Positions 19,833-52,636 of a DNA stretch of 64,000 nt are shown here, piece by piece. The position numbers and the translations under genes were made by a program. The DNA comes from Chitinophagales bacterium (GTDB lineage: Bacteria; Bacteroidota; Bacteroidia; Chitinophagales; CAIOSU01): contig JBBDNB010000008.1 of NCBI GenBank assembly GCA_040877935.1, positions 67,348-131,347 of the forward strand, read 5' to 3'. Position 1 is the first letter of the stretch. Every line of letters begins with the position of its first letter. The notes beneath the pieces were generated by a model. That model was not told the origin of the DNA and did no database searches. It saw only the letters and a list, made by a program, of their open reading frames with translations.

Positions 19833-21128
19833 ATGGCAAATGAAGTAAATGAACCTCAATTGGAATTGTTCAAAACTGAAACGAACAATAAAAAAATAAA
19901 TTTAACTTCAACCTTTGCTGATAATATGAAATTGCCTATACACAGGTGGTACAGATATACAGCAGGCTTTTCAGGACCTTGGGTTAGAGAATTAATTAAA
20001 AATGAAAATGGGCAAAATGTACTTGATCCATTCGGTGGCTCAGGCACAGTTATGCTTGAAGGTGAATTTGCAGGTATCAATACGATTGGAATTGAAGCTC
20101 ATCCATATATTTACAAAATTGCAAGAGCAAAACTGTCTTGGCAAATTGACCCCAAAGAGTTTAAAGACGCTGCAAGAAATATGCTCCAAAGAGCCAAAGA
20201 AAAGAAAATCAATAAATCTGAATATCCTAAACTGATTGAGAAGTGTTACCCTATTGAAATTCTAAAAAAATTAGAAGCTCTGAAAGAAGCTTGGTTCGAA
20301 TCAACGGACAGCACCGAATTAAAAGAGCTCAATTGGTTTGTAATAACAGCAATTCTCCGAATTACCTCTCCAGTAGGAACTGCTCAGTGGCAATACGTTC
20401 AGCCTTCAAAAACTAAAGGAAAAGTAATTGACGCGTTTCATGCTTTTGAAGCAAAAGTATATGAAATGGCTCAAGACATGCAAAATATGCAAAGAAGGTA
20501 TCCAAATGCAACAAGAAGTGAAGTTTTCATGGAAGACGCTCGAAATATGCCTTCTGTCCCAGATGATTGGGCTGACTTGGTCATAACCTCACCGCCCTAT
20601 GCAAACAACTATGATTATGCTGATGCAACAAGATTAGAAATGACTTTTTGGGGAGACATTAAGGGGTGGGGAGATTTACAGGAAAAGGTCAGAAGGTTTT
20701 TAGTTACTGCTTGTACACAACATGTGACAAATCTCAAGGATAAGGCTGATGAAATTTTAGAATCACCATTATTAACCCCTATTCGGCAAGAAATCAAAGA
20801 TGTTTACAATGAATTAGCAAAAACGAGACTTACAAGGGGCGGTAGAAAGAATTATCACTTGATGATAATTGCTTATTTCAATGACTTGGCAAAAGTATTT
20901 CATGAATTACGAAGGGTTACCAAAAAAGACTGTAAAGTTTGTTTTGTTATTGGAGATAGTGCACCTTATGGTGTTTATGTCCCTGTAGATAAATGGTTGG
21001 GCGAACTAGCAGTTTATGCAGGCTTTGATTCTTACGAATTCGAAAAACTAAGGGATAGAAACACCAAATGGAAGAATAGAAAACACAGAGTTCCTTTACA
21101 CGAAGGAAGACTTTGGATAAACGGATAA
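19833..21128 (+). CDS. Type II DNA methyltransferase (amino-type, TSPPY)
   Basis: 431 residues. Motif I reads LDPFGGSGT at residues 64-72 and motif IV reads TSPPY near residue 250, followed by ANNYDYADATRLE. A TSPPY motif is typical of N4-cytosine methyltransferases and also occurs in some N6-adenine enzymes, so the modified base is probably an exocyclic amino group. Motif I precedes motif IV with about 180 residues between, room for a target-recognition region. It overlaps the nuclease gene that follows by 16 bp, the usual arrangement of a restriction-modification pair. The target sequence is unknown. Confidence 0.92.
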   Translation: MANEVNEPQLELFKTETNNKKINLTSTFADNMKLPIHRWYRYTAGFSGPWVRELIKNENGQNVLDPFGGSGTVMLEGEFAGINTIGIEAHPYIYKIARAKLSWQIDPKEFKDAARNMLQRAKEKKINKSEYPKLIEKCYPIEILKKLEALKEAWFESTDSTELKELNWFVITAILRITSPVGTAQWQYVQPSKTKGKVIDAFHAFEAKVYEMAQDMQNMQRRYPNATRSEVFMEDARNMPSVPDDWADLVITSPPYANNYDYADATRLEMTFWGDIKGWGDLQEKVRRFLVTACTQHVTNLKDKADEILESPLLTPIRQEIKDVYNELAKTRLTRGGRKNYHLMIIAYFNDLAKVFHELRRVTKKDCKVCFVIGDSAPYGVYVPVDKWLGELAVYAGFDSYEFEKLRDRNTKWKNRKHRVPLHEGRLWING

Positions 21129-21997
21129 TGGCAAAATCACCAGCACATAAATGGGGGCAAATTATTGGGGACTTTCTCGAAAAAGTCTTTTCAACAGAAC
21201 TTGTAAAATTTGCCAGGAAGCACAAATTATATTTGGACACTCAGGGAGAACGACCAGCAAGGACAGGGAAAAAAGTGAGTTGGATTGACTCTTTTGAAAA
21301 TTCGCATGACTTAGATTTTGTTCTTGAACGTAATGGGACCAAAAATAAAATCGGGGATCCAGTTGCATTTATCGAAAGTGCATGGAGACGTTATACAAAA
21401 CATTCCCGGAACAAAGCGCAAGAAATTCAAGGGGCTATTCTTCCTCTCGTTGCAACACACAAAAATTATGCTCCCTTTATGGGGGTAATGTTAGCTGGTG
21501 AATTTACAGGGGGAGCTTTGAACCAATTAAAATCACTTGGTTTCAATGTTCTATATTTTCCATATGACCTTATTCTCCAAGCCTTCAAAAAGTATGGTAT
21601 TGACGCAAGTACAGAAGAGAATACAACTGAAAAAGACTTTCAAGATAAAATCAATAAATGGGAGAATTTCGATAAAAAGAGGAATTTAGCTCGGTATCTA
21701 CTTAAATTAAACAAACAGGAAGTTGATACATTTTTTGAAAATCTTGAAAAAGCAGTTTCCAGGTTTATTGAGTCAATTAGTGTTTTACCCTTGCACGGAG
21801 CGTCCTCAACCTTGCCCACAGTGAAAGAAGCAATTGACTTTATTGAAAGTTATCAAAATAAAAACGGAAGCCTGCCTGTCTTGAAATACGAGATAGTTGT
21901 GCGATATAACAACAAAGATAAGGTTGAAGGCATATTTAACTCCAAAGAGTCGGCAATTGAGTTTCTTGAATCGTATGCTGCACCTAAACCAAAATAA
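21113..21997 (+). CDS. Probable type II restriction endonuclease
   Basis: 294 residues, immediately downstream of and overlapping the methyltransferase gene. The N-terminal third has a plausible PD-(D/E)xK-like core: HDLDFVLERNG (residues 60-70) followed by GDPVAFIESAWRRYTKHS (residues 76-93), with acidic residues D61/D63 and E83 and nearby basic residues. The family is not one I can name; the function is inferred from gene position and this motif. The C-terminal half contains a helical region (DFQDKINKWENFDKKRN) and no recognised domain. Confidence 0.75.
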   Translation: MDKRIMAKSPAHKWGQIIGDFLEKVFSTELVKFARKHKLYLDTQGERPARTGKKVSWIDSFENSHDLDFVLERNGTKNKIGDPVAFIESAWRRYTKHSRNKAQEIQGAILPLVATHKNYAPFMGVMLAGEFTGGALNQLKSLGFNVLYFPYDLILQAFKKYGIDASTEENTTEKDFQDKINKWENFDKKRNLARYLLKLNKQEVDTFFENLEKAVSRFIESISVLPLHGASSTLPTVKEAIDFIESYQNKNGSLPVLKYEIVVRYNNKDKVEGIFNSKESAIEFLESYAAPKPK

Positions 21998-22058
21998 CAT
22001 TCAAGAAATGACCTTATAATCATAAATAATTTCACTTTAGTCAGCTAACTTTTAGTGA

Positions 22059-22529
22059 ATGCCCTATCCCAAGAAAAAAATAAAAGTGCCGCGCTTTGAG
22101 GAAGCTGCCGGTTTTTACACTACGGCTAAGCGTTCAAAAATCATGAGCAAAATCAAGGGTAAGAATACCAAGCCCGAATTGATTTTTAGGAAGGCACTGT
22201 GGAAAGCGGGCCTTAGATATAGAATCAATAATAAATTGCCCGGTAAACCTGATATTTCTATCAAAAAATACAAATTGGCCATATTTATTGATGGGGAATA
22301 TTGGCATGGCTATAATTGGAAAGAGCGCAAAAAGAAGATTAAGAAAAACAGGAAATTCTGGATCCCGAAAATTGAGCGGAATATGCAGCGAGACAGGGAA
22401 GTCAATGAAGAGCTGAAGGAAATGGGCTATACCGTTTTCAGGTTTTGGAGCAATGAAATCAAAACAGATCTGGACAGGTGCATTGACGATATTTTAATAT
22501 TTATTGCAACGGGAAGCAATGATTGGTGA
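22059..22529 (+). CDS. Vsr-like very-short-patch repair endonuclease
   Basis: 156 residues matching the Vsr fold: SKIMSKIKGKNTKPELIFRKALWKAG at residues 27-52, the catalytic Asp in LPGKPDISI, and FIDGEYWHGYNW, then NMQRDREVNEELKEMGYTVFRFWSNEI. Vsr nicks next to T:G mismatches left by deaminated 5-methylcytosine. In E. coli Vsr the WHG region is zinc-bound through Cys/His; here the Cys positions are Glu and Tyr, so the structural zinc appears absent, as in some homologues. It follows the R-M pair by about 60 bp although that methyltransferase looks like an amino-type enzyme. Confidence 0.88.
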   Translation: MPYPKKKIKVPRFEEAAGFYTTAKRSKIMSKIKGKNTKPELIFRKALWKAGLRYRINNKLPGKPDISIKKYKLAIFIDGEYWHGYNWKERKKKIKKNRKFWIPKIERNMQRDREVNEELKEMGYTVFRFWSNEIKTDLDRCIDDILIFIATGSNDW

Positions 22530-22613: not shown

Positions 22614-23666
22614 TCAACCCTCCTTCAAAGATTGCATATCAATCACAAAGCGGTATTTCACATCTGCTTTTACCACGCGATCCCAGGCCGTGTTGATGTC
22701 TTGTATTTTTATCATTTCCACATCGGGCAAAACATTGTGCTCCCCACAAAAATCAAGCATTTCCTGGGTTTCAGGTATGCCTCCAATCAAGGAACCGGCA
22801 ATGTTTTTCCTTTTAAAGACAAGCAAACCACCATGCACATTTTCCAACGGTTCTATCGCCCCAACCATTACCATGGTCTTATCTCGTTTTAGCAAATTCA
22901 AATAAGGGTTTACATCGTGGCCTACAGGAATAGTGTTCAATAAAAAATCAAAGGAATTGTACTGTTCTTTCATTGCAGCAGCATCAGTGGAAAGCAAAAT
23001 TTCATCCGCGCCCAGAGCTTTAGCATCATTGGTTTTTTCCGGTGAACGTGTAATCATCACTACATGTGCCCCCATGGCATGGGCAAATTTTATTCCCATG
23101 TGCCCGAGGCCGCCCAATCCAATTACTCCAACTTTATCTCCCTTTTTCACTTCCCAATGGCGCAGTGGCGACCAGGTGGTAATTCCTGCACACAACAACG
23201 GTGCTACTTTGGCAGTATCTAAATTTTCAGGTATGCGCAATACAAAATCTTCATCCACCACTATTTTCTCGGAATAACCTCCAAAGGTGTGGCCTCCTGT
23301 ATGAGGATCGGGACTACCATATGTAAAAGTCATGCCATTTTCACAATACTGCTCCAGGCCTTCTTCGCAAGAACTGCAAGTTCTGCACGAATCAACCAAA
23401 CAACCTACTCCAACTAAATCACCGGCTTTAAAATTGCTTACTTCGCCACCCACGCCTATCACTTTTCCTATGATTTCATGGCCCGGCACTACGGGATATT
23501 CCACTGCGCCCCATTCCTCTCTGGCGGTGTGAATATCGCTGTGGCAGACCCCACAATACAAAATTTCAATTTGTACATCTTTACCTGTCAATGTCCTTCG
23601 TTCAATATTCAGTTGTTCTAAATCTTTCCTAGCGGATTTTACTCCGTATGCTTTTACTTTTTCCAT
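22614..23666 (-). CDS. Zinc-dependent NAD(P) alcohol dehydrogenase (YahK/cinnamyl-type)
   Basis: 350 residues of the medium-chain dehydrogenase family. The catalytic zinc site is GVCHSDIHTAREEW with GHEIIGKV. The structural zinc cysteines are in the CLVDSCRTCSSCEEGLEQYC stretch. The Rossmann motif is GLGGLGHMG. These reduce a broad range of aldehydes with NAD(P)H. It is transcribed alone toward low-complexity sequence (22530-22610). Upstream of its ATG are two inverted repeats: TCACAGC/GCTGTGA (23701-23707, 23730-23736) and the palindrome CTCAAATTTGAG (23753-23764), possible regulator sites. Confidence 0.93.
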   Translation of the reverse strand: MEKVKAYGVKSARKDLEQLNIERRTLTGKDVQIEILYCGVCHSDIHTAREEWGAVEYPVVPGHEIIGKVIGVGGEVSNFKAGDLVGVGCLVDSCRTCSSCEEGLEQYCENGMTFTYGSPDPHTGGHTFGGYSEKIVVDEDFVLRIPENLDTAKVAPLLCAGITTWSPLRHWEVKKGDKVGVIGLGGLGHMGIKFAHAMGAHVVMITRSPEKTNDAKALGADEILLSTDAAAMKEQYNSFDFLLNTIPVGHDVNPYLNLLKRDKTMVMVGAIEPLENVHGGLLVFKRKNIAGSLIGGIPETQEMLDFCGEHNVLPDVEMIKIQDINTAWDRVVKADVKYRFVIDMQSLKEG

Positions 23667-23879
23667 TTTGCTTTCTTTTAGTACAATAATAATGAATTGA
23701 TCACAGCTCTATGAAACAATAAATTAATTGCTGTGAACAAATGCAATGACAGCTCAAATTTGAGACATTAAAAAAATCTGTAAAAAAACAGGCGAAGTCT
23801 TTTTTAGTTCTAAAAAAAAGCTTAACTTGAATTTATCAGACAAGTTCTTAGACAATAATAAAGACATAGGCTTTCAGGC

Positions 23880-24087
23880 CTAAACCCATGCAGGTGATAA
23901 AAGTTTGTGAAACTTAACACTTACCATTAAAGGGGCGTTTGAAGCAGTTAGAGCGGGCCTCAATTCATCTTCGGATGGATTCTTTCAGGAGACAAGAGGA
24001 TTATCGACCTGTTTCTGCAAACCTAAACCTGATTTCCAGAGGTTTCAACGAACCTCCTTATCACCTGTGTGGGTTTATTTATTTTGT
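23880..24087 (+). ncRNA. Candidate structured RNA, about 200 nt (possibly 6S-like)
   Basis: A 19-bp closing helix pairs 23882-23900 with 24058-24076. It is perfect except for two adjacent positions that read TG opposite TG, which are G-U wobbles in plus-strand RNA but A-C mismatches on the minus strand. Inside are a 6-bp hairpin with a 3-nt loop (23901-23915), a 7-bp hairpin capped by a cUUCGg tetraloop (ATTCATC/GATGGAT, 23963-23980), and a 6-bp hairpin AAACCT/AGGTTT near 24024-24044. The helix is followed by TTTATTTATTTTG, a terminator-like tail. Size and long closing stem resemble 6S RNA, but I could not match any conserved family sequence; tmRNA, SRP and RNase P hallmarks are absent. Confidence 0.65.
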
Positions 24088-25152
24088 CAAATCTATCCGC
24101 TCCGATCCTTTAAATTTCATAATATAATCCGGGCCTAATAAGCCCGAAGGTGTTTGATAGCCCACTTTAAAATTACCTTCACTTACTTCAATTGCAATAT
24201 CAGTGGCTGTTTTAGCGGTTAAAGTATAGCCCTCAAGTGTTTTTTGCACAGTAATAAATTCATTTCCTGCATTGTCCGTTACTTTGCCCCAGAAATAACT
24301 ATGTGTCTTTTTTCGAGTTTTCTCATCAGGTCCTTCAGGCTTTTGCTCTACTTTTTTTCTTAAATAATTTTTCACAAATTCTTTTCGCAAGAGCCATGAA
24401 AGCCGTCTGCCCCACTTTAAACTGGAAAGCATTTTAGGATCCATACCCATAAATACTTCAATATCTGGAATACCTGTACTGCGATAGGCAGTAGAAATAT
24501 CTCCCCAGGGAATAGCTGCACATTCTTGTTGCAACCAGTGGAAATTGATTTTTTTCACTTTGTGATCTACCGGCACACGCATCAATTGATGGTCTTGTCT
24601 GATCATTCCTCCATAACCAAGGCCTTCTATAGCACTTTTAGCAGTTCCTCTTGAAACCCCTCCTCCATCAGAAGTAAAGGCCAGTTGCAAGTTAATTGCA
24701 GTTGGCAAACGCTCAACAAGATGCTTAGCCAGACAATCTGAAGGAACAACATCAAATCCAACACCGGGCATTAACATAATTCCCGCAGCCTTTGCTTTAT
24801 CATTCCATTCTGCCATTTGTTCAAAAACCTGAAATTCACCGGTAATATCCAGATAATGGGTTTTAGAGAGCATGCAGCCCTGTGCCATAATATTTGCGGT
24901 ATGTATAAAAGGACCTGCACAGTGCAAAACCACATCTACTCTTTTCAATGCCTTGGCAACCTCATTTTTATCTTTTAAATCAAAAACCCTGTAGGGCCAG
25001 TCGTATTTCACAGCAAGGGCTTTCAGAGGTTCTTCCCTCCTGCCTGCAAGAATAGCTTCAGCTCCCTGTGCATTAAATTCTTCAATAATAAGCTTACCGG
25101 TGTAACCATAAGCACCGTAAATCAGTATAACAGGCATAGTACTTTGTTTCAT
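24079..25152 (-). CDS. Saccharopine dehydrogenase-like NAD(P)-binding protein
   Basis: 357 residues. The N-terminal Rossmann fold reads ILIYGAYGYTGKLIIEEF (about residues 9-26), followed by ILAGRREEPLKALA and VVLHCAGPFIHTA, as in saccharopine dehydrogenase-like / trans-acting enoyl reductase proteins. The middle has GVGFDVVPSDCLAKHL. The substrate is unknown; members act on diverse substrates, including lipids. The start is either ATG 25152 or 25137 (MPVILIYG). Its 3' end comes up against the candidate structured RNA on the other strand. Confidence 0.85.
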   Translation of the reverse strand: MKQSTMPVILIYGAYGYTGKLIIEEFNAQGAEAILAGRREEPLKALAVKYDWPYRVFDLKDKNEVAKALKRVDVVLHCAGPFIHTANIMAQGCMLSKTHYLDITGEFQVFEQMAEWNDKAKAAGIMLMPGVGFDVVPSDCLAKHLVERLPTAINLQLAFTSDGGGVSRGTAKSAIEGLGYGGMIRQDHQLMRVPVDHKVKKINFHWLQQECAAIPWGDISTAYRSTGIPDIEVFMGMDPKMLSSLKWGRRLSWLLRKEFVKNYLRKKVEQKPEGPDEKTRKKTHSYFWGKVTDNAGNEFITVQKTLEGYTLTAKTATDIAIEVSEGNFKVGYQTPSGLLGPDYIMKFKGSERIDLTK

Positions 25153-25188: not shown

Positions 25189-25674
25189 ATGATGAACTTA
25201 TACAGTCGTGAAGAATATGTGGAAAGACGCAAAATGCTTCGGTGGTTTCTTGACCAGGTGAATACTGATAATATGCGCAGTAGTGAAACTGATGAAATGA
25301 TTGGTTTTGTAATTGATCAGCTGGGCTTGAGTTTCAGCGATCTTGAAATTATCTGCATTAGTCCTGACTCATACAATATAGCAGCATTTGAAGACGAGGA
25401 AGAGAAATGGGTATTTTATTATCAATTTCTTTCGGCAATGAATTTTGAGAAAAATCTATCCGCTAAAGAATCTGAAATTTGTAGGCTTATCGCATTCAAA
25501 CTAGAAATGGAAGAGAACTTTGTAAATGCCTTATTGACCATTTTACCTCAATACATCAGGAGAAAGATTCCAGACACTGTGATAAAACATTCGGTTGGAG
25601 CCATTAAAAAAAGTATGGTTGCCGCTGCAATGGTGGTTCCAATAGGTTATGTAATTGGAATGAGCTATTCCTAA
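25189..25674 (+). CDS. Hypothetical protein with C-terminal hydrophobic segment
   Basis: 161 residues, begun by two consecutive ATG codons. I do not recognise the family. The bulk is predicted helical and acidic (DNMRSSETDEMIGFVIDQLG, FEDEEEKWVFYYQF). A C-terminal hydrophobic stretch (MVAAAMVVPIGYVIGMSYS) follows a basic segment, so it may be tail-anchored. It is divergent from the saccharopine-dehydrogenase-like gene with only 36 bp between, so the two promoters must overlap. Confidence 0.7.
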   Translation: MMNLYSREEYVERRKMLRWFLDQVNTDNMRSSETDEMIGFVIDQLGLSFSDLEIICISPDSYNIAAFEDEEEKWVFYYQFLSAMNFEKNLSAKESEICRLIAFKLEMEENFVNALLTILPQYIRRKIPDTVIKHSVGAIKKSMVAAAMVVPIGYVIGMSYS

Positions 25675-47018: not shown

Positions 47019-47106
47019 TTAGACATCAATCCGAAAACCAAACACTCATTTTCATAGATGGAGACCCCGTACTTTAGATCCGGTAGGTCTAAAGTCGGGG
47101 TGACGG

Positions 47107-47245
47107 GGTTATTTTGGCTGTCTGCTAATAAGAGATGGGGTTTCTCTGGCAACGCTTAGTCATCCGATGACTATGACCATTAGTTACTCGGAAAGTTTGA
47201 GTTTGCAGAAATCCCATGAACAGCAGTCATCGGATGACTTGCATG
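47107..47245. repeat. REP-like element, copy 1
   Basis: Begins GGTTATTTTGGCTGTCTGC. AGTCATCCGATGACT (47158-47172) and its exact reverse complement AGTCATCGGATGACT (47225-47239) lie 67 nt apart start to start and can form a 15-bp stem, extended by TGC after the second. Each 15-mer is itself a 7-bp dyad around one base. Located directly 3' of the ORF6N gene. Confidence 0.85.
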
Positions 47246-47287
47246 GTTTAGAGCCAAGTCTTGGTTGTACCAATGTTTTTATAATTA

Positions 47288-47841
47288 TTACTCAGAAGAC
47301 CTGGTTTTAAATCCAATTGGCCTTCTTTCAGGCTGCGGGGGATTTAAAAGTTCTTTTAGCGCATTAAATATTACCTGAATTTCTTCTTCATGCTTATTTG
47401 TTTCCTTTTTTTGGGCAAGGATCATTTTTTCCAGTTTTTCCATTCTAAGCAACAAATCCTTATTGCCCAAAAGCACTTCCCTAATCCTGGTGAAAATGCG
47501 AATGATCTGTATATTCACTTCAATGGCCGTTTCACTGTTTAAAACACTTGACAACATTGCCACACCCTGTTCTGTAAATACATATGGCAGCTTGCGCATC
47601 CCCATCTTTTCCTTATTGGATGTCGCATATTGCGATTTCCAATCTTCCAGTTCTTTTTCAGTCAATTGAAACATGAAATCTTCAGGAAAGCGTTTATTAT
47701 TGCGCTTAACTTGCTCGTTTAGGCGTCTTGTCTCAACTCCGTACATTTCGGCTAGATCTCTGTCCAACATTAATTTTTACCCCTAATGTGATAAATTTTA
47801 TCTATGACCTTTTCATCCGTAATATCAATGGATTTTCTCAT
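47288..47841 (-). pseudogene. ORF6N-domain protein gene, frameshifted near its start
   Basis: The main frame (47288-47770, 160 residues) has LDRDLAEMYGVETRRLNEQVKRN and FTEQGVAMLSSVL, a clear ORF6N domain. The usual start of such proteins lies upstream, and in another frame: MRKSIDITDEKVIDKIYHIRGKN from ATG 47841, stopping at 47770-47772. Adding one A to the run of five Ts on the plus strand (47774-47778) joins both frames into RGKKLMLDRDLA, the conserved sequence. It may be truly inactive, use the inner ATG, or reflect a homopolymer assembly error. ORF6N domains occur in phage and mobile-element proteins and may bind DNA. Confidence 0.8.
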
Positions 47842-48042
47842 TGATTACATGTATTGTAGATTCTTAAAAACAACTTATAATCTTGAATTTAATCAAATGT
47901 TTTAATATTTCCTTGAAATAGAGAAAGTAAAAGCTTGTTGTGCAATCCAACTATTTTATAATCCAAGCGGAAACAAACGGTTCGTTTTCATAGATGGAGA
48001 CCCAGTACTTTAGACCTACCAGACCTAAAGTTGGGATGGCGG

Positions 48043-48184
48043 GGTTATTTTGGCTGTCTGCTAATAAGAACGGGGGGTTCTCAGGCAACGCATAGTCATC
48101 CGATGACTATGGTCTATTGGTTACACGTGTAGCTTAGGAGTTTCAGGAATTCCACAAACAGCAGTCATCGGATGACTTGCACGG
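48043..48184. repeat. REP-like element, copy 2
   Basis: Same architecture as copy 1: GGTTATTTTGGCTGTCTGC start, AGTCATCCGATGACT at 48094-48108 and AGTCATCGGATGACT at 48163-48177. The inter-arm sequence has diverged from copy 1 while both 15-mers are unchanged. Confidence 0.85.
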
Positions 48185-48185
48185 C

Positions 48186-48260
48186 TGTCCTGATGATAAA
48201 GAAAATGTCTTGTGCTTTCACTGTGGTCTGACTTTGGCTCATACAGGAAAAAAATCGTAA
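48186..48260 (+). pseudogene. Possible 3' remnant of a zinc-ribbon-type gene
   Basis: An in-frame run of 24 codons ends in a TAA: CPDDKENVLCFHCGLTLAHT and KKS. CFHCG looks like a zinc knuckle, and the frame has no start. It may be the 3' fragment of a gene interrupted by the repeat. This is speculative. Confidence 0.3.
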
Positions 48261-48284
48261 ATTCAGTTTATAAAACAGTTTATC

Positions 48285-48518
48285 ATGATCACTTTAAGAA
48301 TTCGGGTTCACGAAAAAGTTTACAAACATCTAATGTGGCTTTTCAGCAAGTTTAAAAAAGATGAAATAGAAGTCTTTGAGGAAAGCGGTGATTTTGTTTC
48401 CGTTCAAGCTTACATGGAAAGGGAGTTGAAAAAAGTTGAAAACGGTACTACCGAAATAATAGACCTTGATCAATTGGATCAAAATTTAGAAGCTGTAATT
48501 AAAAAACATGAAGATTGA
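48285..48518 (+). CDS. Antitoxin of a ParE/RelE-type module
   Basis: 77 residues. The N-terminus ITLRIRVHEKVYKHLMWLFSKFKKDEIEVFEE is typical of small antitoxins encoded before ParE/RelE toxins. The acidic C-terminal half (TTEIIDLDQLDQNLEAVIKKHED) is the likely toxin-binding part. It overlaps the toxin gene by 11 bp. Confidence 0.75.
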   Translation: MITLRIRVHEKVYKHLMWLFSKFKKDEIEVFEESGDFVSVQAYMERELKKVENGTTEIIDLDQLDQNLEAVIKKHED

Positions 48519-48792
48519 TGTCCTCAAATCTTTTAGTAATAAGTTGGAGGAACAAGTGGATTACATTGCCCAGGACAAACCTGGAGCAGCAAGAAAATTC
48601 AAGAACGATGTACTACAAAAACTCAAAAAGCTGAAAAGGCTGCCCTATGCACATCGTAAATCAATATTTTTCAACCGTAATAATATTCGTGATTTAATTT
48701 TTAAGGGCTACATTATTGTGTACAAAGTAGATGAGAGAAATAAGAAAATAATAGTGTTCGGTCTTTCAAAGTACAAGGATGACATTAAGTAA
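48508..48792 (+). CDS. ParE/RelE-family toxin
   Basis: 94 residues. Small basic protein with the ParE/RelE pattern: SNKLEEQVDYIAQDKPGAARKFKNDVLQKLKKL, a buried YAHRKSIFFNRNNIRDLIFKGYIIVYKV strand set, and KIIVFGLSKY near the C-terminus. Members block DNA gyrase or cleave mRNA in the ribosome; which one applies is not clear. Overlaps the antitoxin gene by 11 bp. Confidence 0.88.
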   Translation: MKIDVLKSFSNKLEEQVDYIAQDKPGAARKFKNDVLQKLKKLKRLPYAHRKSIFFNRNNIRDLIFKGYIIVYKVDERNKKIIVFGLSKYKDDIK

Positions 48793-48923
48793 ATTTTGGC
48801 TGTCTGTTATTAAGAGAGGGAGGAGGCAGCACTCAGTCATCCGATGACTATGGTCCATAAGCTGCTCGGTAAATTGGAAGTTGCACAAATTCCACAAACA
48901 GCAGTCATCGGATGACTTGCCTG
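48791..48923. repeat. REP-like element, copy 3
   Basis: AAATTTTGGCTGTCTGTTAT start, AGTCATCCGATGACT at 48835-48849 and AGTCATCGGATGACT at 48903-48917. Most diverged copy outside the 15-mers. It starts immediately after the toxin stop codon. Confidence 0.8.
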
Positions 48924-48952
48924 GCTTGTAGCAAAACTCTTTACAACTTCAT

Positions 48953-48990
48953 TCAGAAGACCTGGTTTTAAAAATAGGAGTGAATTGTGG
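48953..48990 (-). pseudogene. Remnant of an ORF6N gene 3' end
   Basis: On the minus strand the codons read S I P Q F T P I F K T R S S E then stop. The 20 nt at 48953-48972 are identical to the 3' end of the ORF6N gene at 47292-47311 (FKTRSSE). No further homology is visible upstream. So a second ORF6N gene once lay here next to REP-like copy 3. Confidence 0.6.

Positions 48991-50349: not shown

Positions 50350-52636
<2,287 letters not shown>

Follow-up and report, generated by a model that had tools for sequence, protein, structure and literature searches.

The window, by which we mean the whole 64,000-nucleotide stretch that was analysed, contains an element on the plus strand whose parts are collected in Table 1. 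It is flanked by an alcohol dehydrogenase gene at 22614-23666 and, on the other side, by a saccharopine-dehydrogenase-like gene at 24079-25152. Because these two genes are encoded on the minus strand, neither is read out of the RNA, and as the next gene of annotated size downstream has that orientation, the RNA is not its leader. A genome scan with the neighbouring protein returned relatives of that gene only and gave no useful synteny.

Table 1. Parts of the element and of its leader, in window positions
Feature	Position	Strand	Basis
BoxA-like leader element GTTCTTAGACAAT, one mismatch to GTTCTTT	23844..23856	+	Class-wide enrichment; rRNA and tmRNA leaders
Small palindrome TAGGC-TTTCAG-GCCTA, between the boxA-like site and the predicted 6S RNA	23867..23882	+	Sequence
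Predicted 6S RNA body, full length	23880..24080	+	Covariance models R2 (144.1 bits) and R1 (166.6 bits); Rfam 6S-Flavo and Bacteroidales-1
Closing helix, 5' arm	23881..23900	+	Window-wide helix search; two-sided changes in homologues
Second helix, 5' arm (partner 24040-24051)	23905..23915	+	Models R1 and R2
Presumed central bubble, 5' strand	23916..23930	+	Unpaired in the consensus
Conserved GCGGGCC of the apical stem	23953..23959	+	Near-invariant in alignments; also present in the Bacteroidales-1 alignment
Apical hairpin with cUUCGg loop	23962..23981	+	Sequence and fold; relatives have other stem sequences
Conserved GAGACAAGAGGATTA, 3' side of the apical stem	23989..24003	+	Alignments
Presumed central bubble, 3' strand, region of conserved CCTGATTT	24026..24039	+	Alignments; R1 model
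Second helix, 3' arm	24040..24051	+	R1 model; homologue alignment
Closing helix, 3' arm	24058..24077	+	Window-wide helix search; homologue covariation
T-rich tail past the closing helix, terminator-like	24074..24085	+	Sequence; T-runs of homologues at the same place

Fold of the element and its surroundings

An earlier note on this DNA had proposed a structured RNA here, and we found its sequence and coordinates to be correct. The plus strand folds at -67.9 kcal/mol (z = -3.4), and none of 200 shuffled sequences folded as well. The closing helix is the longest perfect helix in the window when G-U pairs are allowed and the span is limited to 300 nt or less. It exists as the note had described it, except that it comprises 20 bp, two of them G-U, rather than 19. 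Its pair-strength score was equalled by 2 of 200 shuffled windows; taken alone, the closing helix has a window-wide p of about 0.01. Inside it follow a second stem, a bubble and an apical stem that bears two hairpins. In the window one of them has the cUUCGg loop; this hairpin and the T-rich tail had both been pointed out before. By analogy with E. coli, the 5' strand of the bubble may be the template for short product RNAs (pRNAs). At the position of the small palindrome, relatives from the same family carry GACGC-TTT-GCGTC.

We also considered whether the structure belongs to the minus strand, as the leader of the alcohol dehydrogenase gene or as a structure at the 3' end of the saccharopine-dehydrogenase-like gene, rather than to a free RNA. 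Both neighbours are encoded on that strand, which folds too, although more weakly (z = -2.7), and which has a terminator-like palindrome at 23891-23864. However, both covariance models described below match 23880-24080 on the plus strand only, the two G-U pairs of the closing helix fail on the minus strand (as the note had observed), and the homologues lie beside unrelated genes. We give the minus-strand reading almost no credence.

Several other features of the window were recorded. An open reading frame of 161 amino acids without a Pfam match (25189-25674, plus strand) adjoins the saccharopine-dehydrogenase-like gene. At 19833-22529 on the plus strand, a DNA methyltransferase-like gene, an adjoining gene with the look of a restriction enzyme and a Vsr-like mismatch endonuclease (Pfam Vsr, E = 1e-28) stand in a row, probably a restriction-modification cluster. 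Three dispersed copies of a repeat, spaced by about 936 and 740 nt, lie among small open reading frames at 47025-48972; the repeat holds AGTCATCCGATGACT ... AGTCATCGGATGACT palindromes and had zero Rfam matches.

Homologues and relation to the 6S families

Model R1 was built from nine sequences, the window included, and was used to gather 39 homologues with the window left out; model R2 was built from those 39 homologues without the window. R2 finds the window on the plus strand at 144.1 bits (E = 4e-28, a rough value, as are all E-values of these models, because calibration was shortened), and its next match scores 15 bits. The structure of R2 was taken from R1, which included the window, so that the structure is not wholly independent of it while the sequences are. 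A second R1 match at 50957-51077 (19.9 bits) lies inside a katG-like gene on the other strand and is absent with R2; we rejected it as chance.

Pairing is well kept among the 39 homologues: 91.3% of cells are in standard pairs, whereas shuffles reach 64.8% and slid controls 36-52%, and two-sided changes occur at 39 of the 40 pairs, in an alignment that was fitted to the model and is hence biased towards it. A MAFFT alignment of nine sequences, itself the source of the consensus structure, has two-sided changes at 26 of 40 pairs. The second helix is paired in 93% of cells across the 39 homologues, and the outer helix in 97%, with two-sided changes in all 9 of its counted pairs. Homologues that keep the sequence and break the helix, which the note had named as grounds for giving up its proposal, are thus not what we see; instead, the compensatory changes it had called for are present. 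Together with the fold and the plus-strand-only model matches, they bear out its claim of a structured RNA on this strand.

At Rfam's own cut-offs the window contains no known RNA. In a permissive Rfam scan, 6S-Flavo (RF01685) matches from its first to its last model position at 37.3 bits (E = 4e-4), compared with a gathering cut-off of 85 bits, and Bacteroidales-1 (RF01693), whose Rfam title reads '6S-Bacteroidales RNA suggested', matches weakly over its full length at 20 bits, compared with 60; by gathering cut-off the element is a member of neither family. The general 6S model RF00013 has zero matches at E <= 10 in the whole genome, where the element is also the sole 6S-Flavo match at E <= 1. 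This is the covariance search that the note had suggested, and its remark that no sequence match could be made does not survive it: two families align end to end, below their cut-offs, and homologues occur in many families. The same-family relatives G001 and G003-G006 align with Bacteroidales-1 over its whole length at 36-42 bits, and an alignment with the window shows that they share with it GCGGGCC, GAGACAAxGGGATTA, CCTGATTT and the two ends of the closing helix. Other results of these scans were set aside. Matches to snoRNA, RybB and similar families were weak or taxonomically absurd, RF01685 matches in G003, G019 and G023 did not resemble the RNA, and a DNA similarity search of relatives returned short pieces only, mostly by chance.

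Across the class, R2 matches 161 of 396 Bacteroidia-like genomes, with one copy per genome among the matches listed for R1 and R2. In Flavobacteriaceae-like genomes, so called from their 6S-Flavo scores, R1 falls on RF01685 loci that are above the cut-off; one such locus, matched by RF01685 at 3084971-3085077 with 115.9 bits, is matched by R1 at G246:C1:3084940-3085109. RF01693 matches four loci in the same sample, and R1 also falls on three of these. The two Rfam families look like parts of one phylum-wide family. Neither family has a match above cut-off in any of the 61 genomes of the order. The 6S RNA of this order thus escapes Rfam at its cut-offs, yet one model detects 6S across the class.

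Gene order gives a further point of comparison. In E. coli the order is zapA-ssrS. A gene encoding ZapA ends just upstream of the RNA in 29 of 98 loci, representing 14 of 42 families (six of these calls were tested against Pfam, with E-values of 1e-14 to 1e-18, and the rest were read from the same sequence pattern), and the sampled Flavobacteriaceae-like 6S loci lie beside zapA. The window's own copy does not, and its family is without ZapA directly upstream.

It might be argued that the element founds a new and unrelated family of structured RNAs that resembles 6S in size and shape only, given that its scores are under all Rfam cut-offs and that RF00013 finds nothing. Against this stand the end-to-end matches to two 6S-type families of Bacteroidota, the coincidence of the order's own model with 6S-Flavo loci above cut-off, and the zapA synteny of many homologues; we judge an unrelated family very improbable. 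The earlier note had left the choice between a new family and a diverged 6S open, and the evidence favours the latter. The element is homologous to recognized 6S RNAs from the phylum, its layout of stem, bubble and apical stem is backed by covariation, and its gene context and copy number are those of a single-copy free RNA gene. We are highly confident that this bacterium, a member of Bacteroidota, has its 6S RNA gene (ssrS) at this locus. In other words, the element is a diverged 6S RNA: the class is known, but this form of it is new to RNA libraries at the cut-offs they apply.

A boxA-like word in the leader

The leaders of these RNAs have a word in common. GTTCTTT occurs within 120 nt upstream of the RNA in 42 of 98 loci, from 21 of 42 families, where the background is 1.35% per 120-nt window, and it is the 7-mer common to most families. 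In the nearest 86 nt it stands on the RNA's strand in 40 of the 98 loci and on the reverse strand in 1, and its distance to the RNA ranges from 10 to 113 nt. The site in the window is GTTCTTA rather than the consensus and is less clear than in relatives, with no clear -7 box (TAnnTTTG) ahead of it. In family f54 the 6S leaders of four of seven loci (L116, L117, L119 and L120) have GATCTTT instead, which from its sequence may be a lineage variant of the site; as a boxA variant GATCTTT is not phylum-wide.

The same word appears in front of other untranslated RNAs. The genome's own 16S gene was not found in the assembly, and the comparison with boxA was made with the rRNA leaders of relatives. 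In G003, which belongs to the window's family, AAAGTTCTTTGAAATATTGG precedes 16S and contains GTTCTTT in the place and with the likeness of a boxA; at L110, GAAGTTCTTTGACATATTGG lies a few hundred nucleotides beyond the 16S end, where one would expect 23S, and is boxA-like in the same two respects. Of 28 genomes, 15 have GTTCTTT or a close variant of it in the tmRNA leader; the 28 were chosen mainly for their boxA-type 6S leaders and are not a random sample. In most of the 15 leaders the word lies just downstream of a TAnnTTTG -7 box, i.e. inside the transcript. The tmRNA leader of the genome itself (L197, contig C39, tmRNA at 141773) contains GATCTTTGACATATTGG, one base away from the likely boxA of the L110 23S leader.

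A competing explanation, which concerns the leader and not the identity of the 6S RNA, is that GTTCTTT acts at the DNA level, for instance as the -33 portion of an alternative promoter, and not as boxA in RNA. The word lies 18-36 nt upstream of the RNA in many loci, and only 1 of 98 combines it with a canonical -7 box near the RNA. However, the distance between word and RNA varies as given above, most of the word-bearing tmRNA leaders have it downstream of the -7 box, TAnnTT(T/A)G is found 5' of the word in 10 of 22 zapA-free 6S leaders (background 2.4%), and rRNA leaders carry the same extended word. On balance we think a DNA element unlikely.

We lean towards the view that in much of Bacteroidota the 6S and tmRNA precursors carry a boxA in their leaders, so that the machinery for rRNA antitermination and RNA chaperoning also makes the polymerase-throttling RNA, and that the 6S of the window has a variant site. 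If true, the boxA-like leader ties the production of 6S and tmRNA to the rRNA antitermination machinery. This leader may be the new part of our observations. No paper joining boxA with 6S was found in an incomplete set of literature, the titles and abstracts on boxA and tmRNA held nothing relevant, and a published survey of boxA states that non-coding RNAs were not considered (PMC5725501).

Proposed mechanism and known systems

6S is a bacterial RNA that clamps onto RNA polymerase as growth slows. The RNA of about 200 nt from the plus strand would form the closing stem, the central bubble and the apical stem with its two hairpins; by homology, it would mimic an open promoter and occupy the holoenzyme of RNA polymerase with the housekeeping sigma factor at slowed growth, until synthesis of a short pRNA by the polymerase, with the bubble as template, sets it free. 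A 6S RNA and its pRNAs have been reported in Bacteroides thetaiotaomicron (PMC7366714). Transcription of the precursor probably begins 5' of the boxA-like site. From the leaders we infer boxA-dependent antitermination of this precursor, which would proceed as follows. The site probably recruits NusB-S10, by which the untranslated transcript would escape Rho and fold properly, and the nascent boxA perhaps aids the pairing of the transcript's two distant ends, as has been proposed for the leader-trailer helix of rRNA (PMC10250234). The leader would be trimmed afterwards.

Compared with known RNAs, the element shares with 6S-Flavo (RF01685) a full-length match, the conserved blocks, the single copy and the core of the apical stem, and is linked to it through R1, but it has two apical hairpins, a longer body and no adjoining zapA, and it scores 37 bits where the cut-off is 85. 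With Bacteroidales-1 (RF01693) it aligns end to end, with the GCGGGCC and GGATTA blocks and two apical hairpins in common, although the window's score is 20 bits and the cut-off 60. Like the 6S RNA of E. coli (RF00013, ssrS), it has a closing stem, a bubble and an apical stem, and zapA adjoins many of its Bacteroidota homologues; unlike that RNA, the window is without an RF00013 match. We know of no boxA-like leader for E. coli ssrS. The boxA of E. coli rRNA leaders is GCUCUUUAACA. The leader word described here differs from the boxA of rRNA leaders in preceding 6S and tmRNA, and in the one mismatch of the window's copy, and resembles it in having a TTCTTT-type core before an untranslated RNA, probably within the transcribed leader.
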